A stretch of 64,000 bases of DNA from Arachidicoccus ginsenosidivorans (GTDB lineage Bacteria; Bacteroidota; Bacteroidia; Chitinophagales; Chitinophagaceae). Below, one piece after another: positions 45,954 through 60,921 of this stretch. Position numbers and translations under genes: made by a program. The stretch lies in contig NZ_CP042434.1 in NCBI RefSeq assembly GCF_007971385.1, positions 2,046,001-2,110,000 of the forward strand, written 5' to 3'. The number at the start of each line of letters is the position of its first letter. The first letter of the stretch is position 1. The notes under the pieces are model-generated. The model was not told where the DNA came from, did no database searches, and saw only the letters and a program-made list of their open reading frames with translations.

Positions 45954-46949
45954 TTAAAAATCATGCACCCAGGACGCCAGTGAAATGACATTTATCCCAT
46001 CCTGCCTAGTATAGCTGATACCCGTCCCTGTAATAATATTGAGTGATTTTGGAGGCCTCGCTTTGCTAAGGTCCAAGTTGCTGGCAAATTTAAGGAGACT
46101 TACTGCAGCTTTTTCAATCTCACCGGTACCTAACTTGATTTCAAAAGCACACCAATCACCATTATATTTTTGAACAATGCTGTCCACTTCCAGCCCACTT
46201 GAATCGCGGTAGTGATATACTTTTGCGTCATTGACCTGTCCATAAACCCTAAGTTCGTGTGTAACTAAAGATTCAAACAAAAATCCGGTAATTTTCAAAT
46301 CACTGAATAAGCTTTCTTTATCTAGTCCAAGTACCGCCACCGCCAGGCAAACATCCGTAAAATGTCGTTTAGGTGACTTTCGAAGAGATGCAGAAGAACG
46401 TATATGCGTATTCCACGCTGGTTGATCTTCCACAATCATAAGTCTGTTTAAAGTATCCAGATAATCATAAATAGTTGGGCGTGAGATTTGAATATTATCC
46501 CTGAGTAGTATATCCCTTTTCAAAGCAGAAATATCTACTATTGTAGCTGTATTCCTGGCAATAGCTTTGAGTAGACTTCTTACTTTAACAGGGTCGTGCT
46601 TTACGCTAGAAACAAGGTTCATATTTCCCTCAATAAATTCTTTTACATAAGCTTGATTTACTTCTATTGCTTGATGAAGCCCGCTGCCTAAATGCTCAGC
46701 CAACCCACCAATAATTATTTTCTCGATAATAAATTCTAAATCCATCGGATCGTCATATATATCAATGTTCGCCTTTTTACCACCTTCCAACAATTGTCTC
46801 AGACTCACTTTGCCTGTTGCAAACCCCATTTCCTGCCACGACATCGTATGCATACCTCTGATCGTAATCCGGCCAGTCCCAGAGAGCCTTCTATCTGGCG
46901 TTGTCTTTATTTTTAATTCCCGAGCCAATGCCCTAGCTTTAGTAGCCAT
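45954..46949 (-). pseudogene. AAA/DUF4143 ATPase, 5'-truncated (no P-loop), nuclease-like end intact
   Basis: The 331 residues correspond to the middle and end of AAA_14/DUF4143 ATPases. TGRITIRGMHTMSWQEMG matches the block that normally follows the ATPase core, then winged-helix sequence (NIQISRPTIYDYLDTLNRLMIVED) and the DUF4143 end (HYRDSSGLEVDSIVQ, WCAFEIKLGTGEIEKAA). That end has the D...ExK pattern of PD-(D/E)XK nucleases. Walker A and B, normally in the first 130 residues, are absent: the gene starts at a plausible ATG (46947-46949) immediately downstream of its repeat array. An internal deletion has probably removed the ATPase domain. It could still make a short nuclease-like protein, but decay is more likely. 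Confidence 0.7.
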
Positions 46950-46981: not shown

Positions 46982-47050
46982 ACTTTACAAAATTTGAGCA
47001 TTTTACTTTACAAATTTGGAGCGATTTACTTTACATATTTGGAGCTTCTG
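46982..47050. repeat. Three tandem 23-bp repeats upstream of the truncated DUF4143 gene
   Basis: Units begin at 46982, 47005 and 47028, each 23 bases, with the core ACTTTACAAATTTGGAGC (unit 2). Units 1 and 3 differ at a few positions. Read on the minus strand, the gene's strand, each gives GCTC(C)AAAT..TGTAAAG. The period is about two helical turns, so bound proteins would lie on one face of the DNA. The array ends 32 bases before the gene's ATG. It is probably an operator or recognition array for the ATPase family encoded next to it; compare the array at 60692. Confidence 0.75.
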
Positions 47051-59257: not shown

Positions 59258-60682
59258 TTAATCCATAAACAAATCTTCCAATGTCAGACTATTTTGCACA
59301 AGCGTCCTGGCATATGGATTATGGATGAGTCCAAACGGAGTAATAAACGTCATAAAAATAGATTTTTTTGTTCCGCTAACACTTCTGAATAATTCTACTT
59401 TGTTCATAAGCTCATCGGCATACTTTTTTGTGATAGTGAACATTTTATTTGAAAACTTAATCTCACATAGATTTATCACATCGTCTCTTCGATCAATGAT
59501 TAAATCAATTTGACAGCCCTTCTTTTCATAAGAACCTGTCCAGGAGGATAACAAAGTTTGAACCCCTGCTATGCCTAATGCTTTTTTTATTTGGTTGGCA
59601 TGCTGCAAGCAAAGCATCTCAAATGCATATCCACTCCAGGCACGTTTACTAGGATCGTCTACAGCTAGTATCCAATCACTTTTAATCAGGCGCTTTTTGC
59701 CATCCATAAAATTCAGGTAAAATAATGAAAAGAAATCCACTAGCTGAAACAATCTATTTTGATTTTTGCCGCCAAAAGGCAGATAATCTTTGACAAAATC
59801 ACTTTCCGCAAGCTCATTTAATAGTCGTGTTGTGCTACCCGCATTAGGCAATTTGGAAAGTTTTATTAATTCACCTCGAGTTAGCCCCTTTCGCGCCGTA
59901 CTTAAAGCTCTAATGATCGCCAAATGGCTATCTGCATTTTTGAATAATGAATAATATAAATCTTCAAATTCAGTACTTAACCTACCATTTGAATTGAAAC
60001 ATAAAGATTGAATATTTTGTGCTGCACTTTGTCTGGTATCCACCATATCTAAATAAAATGGAATTCCTCCTAGCGCCATATACAACTGTACAATTTCATA
60101 TTTAACATAAGCGCCTTCCTTGGCCTTAAAGAACGCTTCACACTCATATAGATTAAAGGGTTCTAATTTCAATTTTGATGTTAGCCTATGGTGCAAACCG
60201 CCTCTATTTCTGATAAGTCGATGGATCATCCATGACGCAGCAGATCCACATACAATAAGGGCAATATTCTTAGTACTTGCATAAGAATTCCAGAAGTATT
60301 CCAATGCCTGAATAAAATTCGATTTATGCGTATCAAACCAAGGCAACTCATCTAAAAAAACAACCAGCTTCTCCTTTTTGTCTAAAGAGTCCAATAATTG
60401 CTGTAGCAACTCAAAGGCGTCAAACCAGTCTTTAGGCATTTGTACATTTGCGCCTTCCGCCCCATAATGCAATAATCGATTGTAAAAGTTTTTCAATTGA
60501 ATTTTCATGGTTGAATTAGCAGTACCAGTCATATAAAAATCGAACTGTTGCCCAAAAAACTCCTTGATAAGGTAGGTTTTTCCCACTCGCCTTCTACCGT
60601 ATACAGCCAGAAATTCCGGCCGATCAGAATGGCAAATTCGTTGTAATTCCTTAATTTCTATGTGTCGACCAATAATTTTCAT
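59258..60682 (-). CDS. AAA family ATPase with DUF234-type PD-(D/E)XK C-terminal domain
   Basis: 474 residues from the ATG at 60680-60682 (MKIIGRHIEIKELQRICHS); a further upstream ATG at 60712 would read through part of the repeat array. AVYGRRRVGKTYLIKEFF is Walker A, KLVVFLDELPWFDTHKSN is Walker B, and IALIVCGSAASWM is a sensor region. A winged-helix part (STARKGLTRGELIKLS) precedes the C-terminal domain. There, KKGCQIDLIIDRRDDVINLCEIKFS gives the D...ExK pattern of PD-(D/E)XK nucleases. The family (archaeal-type ATPase/DUF234) has no firm biochemical function. All motifs are intact, unlike the relative at 45954. It is preceded at once by a 51-bp tandem repeat array that overlaps its promoter. 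Confidence 0.85.
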   Translation of the reverse strand: MKIIGRHIEIKELQRICHSDRPEFLAVYGRRRVGKTYLIKEFFGQQFDFYMTGTANSTMKIQLKNFYNRLLHYGAEGANVQMPKDWFDAFELLQQLLDSLDKKEKLVVFLDELPWFDTHKSNFIQALEYFWNSYASTKNIALIVCGSAASWMIHRLIRNRGGLHHRLTSKLKLEPFNLYECEAFFKAKEGAYVKYEIVQLYMALGGIPFYLDMVDTRQSAAQNIQSLCFNSNGRLSTEFEDLYYSLFKNADSHLAIIRALSTARKGLTRGELIKLSKLPNAGSTTRLLNELAESDFVKDYLPFGGKNQNRLFQLVDFFSLFYLNFMDGKKRLIKSDWILAVDDPSKRAWSGYAFEMLCLQHANQIKKALGIAGVQTLLSSWTGSYEKKGCQIDLIIDRRDDVINLCEIKFSNKMFTITKKYADELMNKVELFRSVSGTKKSIFMTFITPFGLIHNPYARTLVQNSLTLEDLFMD

Positions 60683-60691
60683 TTTCAATAA

Positions 60692-60809
60692 TTTAAGCCA
60701 AAGATAAGGCATTGCTGGCTTAAAGCCATCATTTTTACCTCATTTGAGCCAATAATGGCCTATTATTGGCTCAAACAGCATTTTTTACCCCCCTTTAAGC
60801 CAACAATAA
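60692..60809. repeat. 51-bp tandem repeat array overlapping the ATPase promoter
   Basis: TTTAAGCCAAAGATAA (60692), TTTGAGCCAATAAT (60743) and TTTAAGCCAACAATAA (60794) begin units spaced exactly 51 bases apart. Each of the first two units also holds an inverted copy, TGGCTTAAA at 60716 and TGGCTCAAA at 60767, again 51 apart. Unit 2 thereby makes a 33-bp near-palindrome (60743-60775). On the minus strand the first half-site overlaps TATCTTTG (60699-60706), a TAnnTTTG -7 element just before the ATPase ATG. A protein bound there would control the ATPase gene. Confidence 0.75.
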
Positions 60810-60921
60810 TATATTTTACTAAATATAATAACGCATATCACTGTATACGCATTAAACATTTAGCCTTTTTTACACTTTTGTCTCAAATCAATACAAGAAG
60901 CATATACTCCCTATTGTAACG

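Follow-up and report, generated by a model that had tools for sequence, protein, structure and literature searches.

PDC-S27 and PDC-S01 are the described systems closest to the locus considered here. Both are ATPase domains fused to PD-(D/E)XK members and rank among the most frequent candidate defence genes, and most PDCs still await experimental validation (PMC12988326). Two papers treat PDC-S27 as a defence candidate (PMC12988326, PMC13356809), and the passages concerned give no function or regulation for either group. The words 'promoter' and 'operator' are absent from the main text of PMC12988326, where the four listed occurrences of 'repeat' concern other matters. Arrays of the kind reported below were not found described in the titles and abstract beginnings of the open-access papers listed, which is weak evidence because some result lists were far longer and most subscription journals lie outside this literature.

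Other systems share some features with gene A, a full-length PDC-S27 match. STAND NTPases, such as NLR resistosomes and CED-4, have the same ATPase fold; the bacterial Avs proteins are also STAND NTPases, and both NLR and Avs proteins carry C-terminal sensor repeats. Gene A differs from STAND NTPases in its winged helix, its nuclease-like domain and the DNA sites at its own promoter. In autoregulated toxin-antitoxin modules and in restriction-modification systems with C-proteins, a potentially toxic module is controlled by palindromes at its own promoter. Gene A resembles them in being a potentially toxic module with palindromes at its own promoter, but no separate antitoxin or controller is seen, repression would fall to the ATPase-nuclease itself, and the arrays are longer, with a five-turn period. 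Archaeal Orc1/Cdc6 proteins, whose sites are the origin recognition boxes, have in common with gene A the AAA+ domain, the winged helix and inverted sites adjoining the gene; gene A differs from them by the extra nuclease-like domain and by sites that lie in the promoter region and mostly differ among copies.

Relative to what is described for PDC-S27 and PDC-S01, the new element is the cognate array. The explanation favoured here, which we hold with somewhat better than even confidence, is that each ATPase-nuclease would bind its own array and repress itself, gene and array forming one self-contained cassette.

Gene A and the array ahead of it

Gene A lies in the window, which is the whole stretch of 64,000 nucleotides that was analysed. 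The features of the gene and of its array are the following.

59258..60682, minus strand: gene A, a 474-aa AAA+ ATPase / winged helix / PD-(D/E)XK protein (PDC-S27), from PADLOC, Pfam and AF2
60044..60667, minus strand: ATPase_2 domain (AAA+, STAND/ORC-like), residues 6-213, from Pfam, alignment and fold comparison
59741..59935, minus strand: winged-helix domain, residues 250-314, from the secondary structure of the AF2 model
59804..59839, minus strand: predicted recognition helix, residues 282-293, from the AF2 model and the covariation of residue 283 in the best-sampled clade
59261..59650, minus strand: PD-(D/E)XK nuclease-like domain, residues 345-474, from alignment and fold comparison
60692..60706, plus strand: half-site 1, closest to gene A, TTTAAGCCAAAGATA, from sequence
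60699..60706, minus strand: -7-like promoter box TATCTTTG inside half-site 1, from sequence and from the position of such boxes at homologues
60711..60724, minus strand: half-site 2, inverted, from sequence
60743..60756, plus strand: half-site 3, palindrome partner of half-site 4, from the 14-bp perfect arms
60762..60775, minus strand: half-site 4, inverted, from the 14-bp perfect arms
60794..60807, plus strand: half-site 5, from sequence
60811..60823, minus strand: half-site 6, weak and inverted, from the consensus rule alone (at least 8 of 13 matches)

The first-pass annotation had read ATPase, winged-helix and nuclease-like parts in the protein, and both fold prediction and conserved motifs bear it out. 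The PADLOC profile for PDC-S27, PDLC04984, is matched over its full length (E=1e-194, gene A residues 1-472 on profile positions 1-473 of 474) and Pfam ATPase_2 is matched at E=4e-19. The start codon is most likely the ATG at 60682 and not that at 60712, because homologues align from MKIIGR. In the AlphaFold2 model (mean pLDDT 94.4, pTM 0.91), the AAA+ domain and the winged helix are followed by an alpha/beta domain at the C-terminus. Walker A reads GRRRVGKT and Walker B FLDE, and the residues G29, R30, G34, K35, T36, D111 and E112 are invariant in a 72-protein alignment. Among solved structures, two archaeal AAA+ ATPases come nearest (2qen, Z 20.9; 2fna, Z 20.2), followed by the STAND proteins CED-4 (Z 17.2) and the wheat resistosome (Z 16.1), and also by ORC/Cdc6 proteins, including Orc/Cdc6 bound to origin DNA (2qby, Z 13.9). 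A sequence profile of TnsC matches as well (E=0.0013), and the NCBIfam orc1/cdc6 model TIGR02928 gives 12.7 bits on gene A, far under its cut-off of 181.3.

The winged helix consists, in the model, of helices 250-260, 269-276 and 282-293 and two strands, and an HTH_IclR match in this region (E=0.003) is under Pfam's cut-off. Folded separately, the C-terminal domain (pLDDT 89.3) resembles NucS/EndoMS (Z 9.6 and 9.0) and further PD-(D/E)XK nucleases such as FokI (Z 7.4), with weak Foldseek matches (best E 1.6e-3), and the residues E355, D393, E407 and K409 (E / D / ExK) are invariant across 72 aligned proteins. By model and alignment, this domain is a PD-(D/E)XK fold with the catalytic set, and a candidate nuclease. 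As for the DUF234/DUF4143 label proposed at first pass, its first half holds weakly, DUF234 being found on gene A at E 0.049 (and at E<=0.01 in 32 of the 72 proteins of alignment A2), but the second half does not, as DUF4143 (PF13635) is absent from the gene A matches at E<=1 and reaches E<=0.01 in 7 of the 72 proteins.

The array is composed of six half-sites of about 14 bp in alternating orientation (60692-60823), with a unit of 51 bp and a weak outermost half-site. The repeat coordinates and the 51-base spacing of the earlier annotation were recovered, with 25-nt direct repeats at 60681, 60732 and 60783 (spacing 51 and 51; the outer two 68% and 76% identical to the middle one) and inverted arms at 60692-60700/60716-60724, paired at 9 of 9 positions, and at 60743-60756/60762-60775, paired at 14 of 14, the latter forming a palindrome with perfect 14-bp arms. 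Its description as a tandem array stands for the 51-bp period but not for the pattern, which is one of palindromes and alternating half-sites and not a plain tandem repeat. The reported overlap with the gene's own -7 element was also seen, since TATCTTTG, which we take to fit the Bacteroidota -7 box consensus, lies within half-site 1.

Arrays were scored by the best triple of site, inverted site and site in the 240 bp upstream of a gene, with the period left free between 30 and 79 and a threshold of 31 of 39 matches. Gene A reaches 35 of 39 at period 51, a value that no dinucleotide shuffle of this 240-bp stretch attained in 300 trials (shuffle maximum 33). TRF at a score of at least 30 does not report the gene A array, because the repeating parts are half-sites and not whole 51-mers. 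The 5.77-Mb home genome contains two occurrences of the dyad TTTRAGCCA-N8-20-TGGCTYAAA, both at the gene A array.

Arrays and cassettes across the family

Arrays of this kind are general among PDC-S27 homologues. A first set of 100 placed loci was reduced to 95 by dropping two L040 duplicates and the loci L040, L046 and L056, which are fragments or lack the gene start; the broken home-genome copies C, E, F and G are counted within the 95, while home copy D, two small home-genome fragments, the G005 fragment L044 and three further matches are outside. Of the 95 homologues, 70 have an array triple upstream; the threshold was also reached by 6 of 93 downstream regions, 1 of 95 mid-gene regions and 13 of 475 shuffles, which preserve dinucleotides. 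A second search in another collection took the best 80 of at least 582 relatives, giving 88 loci (L225-L312), of which four had too little upstream DNA; arrays were present at 53 of the remaining 84, against 4 of 82 downstream regions, and at 48 of 79 once the 5 loci common to both sets were removed.

The first-pass annotation had named two outcomes that would count against a link between gene and repeats. As to the first, homologues free of upstream repeats, most of those examined do carry an array, though 25 of the 95 loci in the first set and 31 of the 79 in the second are below threshold. As to the second, repeats equally frequent at unrelated genes, triples are rare there, occurring at 1 of 47 upstream regions of neighbouring genes and at 3 of the 42 genes of the 64-kb window, and two of these three are the gene A array viewed from both flanking genes. 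The best period is 51-55 bp in 57 of the 70 first-set arrays and in 41 of the 48 of the second set, with a peak at 52-54 bp, about five helical turns. Moreover, a palindrome score of at least 12 within 350 bp was obtained upstream in 61 of 95 loci, downstream in 17, mid-gene in none and in 6 of 950 dinucleotide-preserving shuffles, and some of the 17 downstream palindromes may be terminators.

Arrays were also found at homologues in other phyla. Among the plasmid and phage homologues, that of a Malaciobacter plasmid scores 31 at period 51 and that of Wolbachia phage WO (L122) 33 at period 56, while a Butyrivibrio plasmid homologue (L119; palindrome plus third half-site, 33 at period 62) and a Phocaeicola plasmid homologue (L120; 32 at period 77) are off the 51-55 peak; L117, L118 and L123 are under the array threshold (29, 30 and 29). 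In phage WO, the gene directly follows a head-tail preconnector gene, and its 56-bp palindromic array (about 1400-1489) lies shortly ahead of the start codon; the viral contigs L309 and L310 have the same array, and both are near-copies of a first-set locus. Five distant relatives of 24-27% identity (Desulfosarcina, Rhodothermus, a Fusobacteriota plasmid, Natrialba and Rhizobium), judged by eye and by triple score, show triples of 25 to 31 and at most short repeats or palindromes, and are not counted as support.

Some loci have repeats of other forms. L034 carries two near-identical palindromes with perfect arms of 22-24 bp at about -294 and -76, thus 218 bp apart where the usual spacing is about 52 bp. 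Repeats of a different kind are seen at L047 (13-bp tandem repeats, about -280 to -188) and at L065 (7-bp tandem repeats, about -330 to -147).

Gene and array are absent together from this site in two related genomes. In the window, they have a xylose-isomerase-like gene on one side and a heavy-metal P-type ATPase gene on the other. In G003, 167 bp separate a gene similar to this isomerase-like one (72-73% nucleotide identity) from the P-type ATPase gene, and the site shows neither a match to ATPase A nor an array (best triple 28). In G005, the P-type ATPase gene and the neighbour that flanks the cassette of G001 (66% nucleotide identity over 850 positions) are both present, again with neither an ATPase A match nor an array at this site (best triple 24). 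Presence is patchy, with matches in 9 of 60 family genomes at E<=1e-60 and in 45 of 294 at E<=1e-80, weaker relatives being outside these thresholds. Patchy presence, broken copies and empty sites give indirect support to the idea that the cassette may be selfish.

A tRNA gene is present in 7 of 60 loci (mostly of about 4.4 kb), several times within a few hundred bp of the ATPase gene; this is a raw count, and the proximity possibly reflects an insertion preference of the ATPase gene. Viral contigs gave 0, 1 and 1 stretches for three array patterns. The array motif in phages without the gene was rejected as a candidate, one match being inside a 186-codon ORF and the other terminator-like between phage ORFs, with no ATPase encoded in either case.

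An initiator similar to ORC/Cdc6 or TnsC could also use the array, as an origin, partition or transposition site with iteron-like repeats for replication, segregation or movement. The fold match to 2qby and the TnsC profile match are consistent with such a role, as are the plasmid- and phage-borne homologues, of which one, on a plasmid, has a ParB-family gene about 1.2 kb upstream and another adjoins helicase-related and DUF1896 genes, and also the empty sites and broken copies. However, no replication or transposition gene adjoins gene A, and the array is one-sided and differs between copies. Furthermore, the other annotated plasmid and phage loci have neighbours unrelated to replication, a comparison that covers annotated plasmid and phage loci, as two further records and the chromosomal neighbours of other homologues come without annotation. 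An origin, partition or transposition site is thus considered unlikely. On the Malaciobacter mytili plasmid pAMYT (L121), a ParB-family gene and a helix-turn-helix regulator are located immediately upstream of the homologue, a lead for partition or replication.

Mostly gene-specific half-sites and their covariation with the protein

The home genome holds about seven copies of the gene and two fragments, of which A and B alone are intact by their open frames. Half-sites differ among most of these copies; they are not all distinct, because those of B and of the broken copy G are similar and both have a TGGACAA core. The exact dyad of paralogue B occurs three times in the 5.77-Mb home genome, always at B, and for the broken copies, the upstream triples score 37 at E and 33 at G, and, below the array threshold, 29 at C, 28 at D and 26 at F. 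Many first-set half-sites follow a frame of about TAGTTTTGG(C/A)N..TATAAA with variable bases after GG, and some second-set half-sites are quite unlike it. The array sequence is mostly private to each gene, and each ATPase probably switches itself via this private DNA address, as far as can be judged from sequence.

The covariation check proposed at first pass could be carried out, and the more alike two proteins are, the more alike their half-sites tend to be (r=0.50, Mantel p=0.001) over 57 loci, namely those of the 95 with an array score of at least 29, a half-site score of at least 12 and an intact protein. Gene A and its near relatives are outside this set, since they were set in the opposite orientation by the motif model. 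In sliding windows corrected for overall identity, the peak is at AAA+ residues 86-125 (partial r up to 0.28), with lesser windows at residues 166-185 (0.18) and at the recognition helix, residues 281-300 (0.16). The AAA+ domain takes part in DNA recognition in ORC proteins, and the peak suggests that it may take part in site recognition here too.

The strongest residue-base pair tested joins residue 283, the second residue of the predicted recognition helix in the model, with the base following TGGC. This residue tops the 474 columns for base 10 being G, and over 8 independent tree pairs the two agree in 6.7, disagree in 0.3 and show no difference in 1.0 on average (median p 0.031). A one-residue rule was drawn up, by which G, W or N at 283 goes with G, R with C, and T or S with T (or with C after GGA). 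In 31 further loci, one of which (locus L283) is a near-copy of a first-set locus, the rule held for R to C in 2 of 2, T to T in 3 of 3, N to G in 1 of 1, S to T in 4 of 7 and G to G in 3 of 15; in 15 non-overlapping second-set loci, the counts were G to G 1 of 5, S to T 1 of 5, N to G 1 of 2, R to C 1 of 1 and T to T 1 of 1. Gene A and its syntenic relative L029 in G001 (66% identical) both have S283, yet the base differs. As a general code the rule fails outside the best-sampled clade, and it is kept as partial. A further pairing, of residue 170 with base 9, was abandoned as a second code position, since these two go together in 0.5 of 5 independent pairs. The winged helix is therefore implicated by these comparisons, but not decoded, because the rule at residue 283 is not general.

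The same half-sites could be operators of another, host-encoded regulator and track the family since promoters travel with their genes. The TTTTGGC..TATAAA frame common to many first-set half-sites fits a shared regulator, and binding of the array by the protein itself is a prediction. Against this stand the exact dyads of A and B, which are found at no other place in the home genome, the mostly different sites used by copies in the same genome, the tracking of protein sequence by the half-sites and the arrays at homologues in other phyla, and a host regulator is accordingly judged very unlikely.

Proposed self-repression from the array

In the case of self-repression, which remains our preferred explanation, the protein would bind its own array, probably with one protomer per half-site. 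Since the sites alternate in orientation every 26 bp or so, the units recur about every five helical turns, and the bound protein would form an oligomeric assembly. Binding would repress the gene, because the gene-proximal half-site contains the -7-like box, and repression would leave a potentially toxic enzyme scarce and parked. If binding were lost, through infection, DNA damage or dilution, expression would rise and set free the enzyme, whose nuclease activity could serve in defence. As the copies mostly have different half-sites, cross-regulation between them would be limited.

At homologues, TAnnTTTG boxes in sense orientation are most frequent 20-60 nt ahead of the first aligned codon, a position in favour of such repression. 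Points against it are that the -7-like box, present within 80 nt of the gene in 37 of 61 arrays, overlaps a half-site in 31 of these 37, a value that exceeds the placement expectation of 25.3 only modestly, and that a full -33/-7 pair was found in just 5 of 61 arrays (0.7 in shuffles).

That the array is instead transcribed and acts as RNA, its tandem hairpins serving the protein as guide or antitoxin RNA in the manner of type III toxin-antitoxin systems, would suit hairpin-forming repeats directly ahead of the gene and the excess of G.U over A.C among mismatched dyad positions (129 against 95 in 204 dyads), but it is highly improbable, as this excess is small and inconsistent by locus (27 against 18) where constraint on an RNA should favour G.U strongly, the probable promoter box at the gene-proximal end would leave the array upstream of the transcript, and a period near five helical turns is expected of DNA and not of RNA.

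If self-repression by the ATPase-nuclease is true, these genes would encode a large, naturally occurring group of ATPase-nucleases that bind DNA, mostly with orthogonal specificities, and that carry their own off-switch. The arrays give, from sequence alone, a probable DNA target for each protein, so that binding, specificity and regulation are directly testable in vitro.

A broader and rather doubtful proposal concerns the STAND/AAA+ ATPase-nuclease superfamily as a whole, in which the array at a gene's own promoter could be both assembly platform and sensor. The protein would be kept in an inactive state as an oligomer, phased with the helix, on sites that are private and diverge fast, and disturbance of the array by an invader (titration, transcription, replication or damage) would de-repress the gene and release the assembled nuclease. 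DUF4143 ATPases would do likewise on single palindromes, or on direct repeats whose periods are about two and three turns of the helix.

In the sister family of DUF4143 (PDC-S01) ATPases, 59 loci were sampled, 46 scored and 43 had a usable ORF. A palindrome score of at least 10 within 100 bp was reached upstream in 25 of 43, downstream in 5, mid-gene in none and in 4 of 430 shuffles, which here preserve base composition alone. Sixteen of the loci are not blind, because they were chosen after 22 upstream regions had been viewed; among the 28 that were not hand-picked, 19 reach the same score. Direct triples scoring at least 29 were present upstream in 9 of the 43 loci, downstream in one and mid-gene in none, and their periods were 18, 22-23 and 32-33 bp. 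The window itself encodes a DUF4143 (PDC-S01) protein at 45954-46949 (minus strand), whose best-profile match starts at position 120 and which seems, from its sequence, to lack the P-loop part. Ahead of this gene, at 46982-47045, there are nearly three 23-bp direct repeats (TRF score 93).
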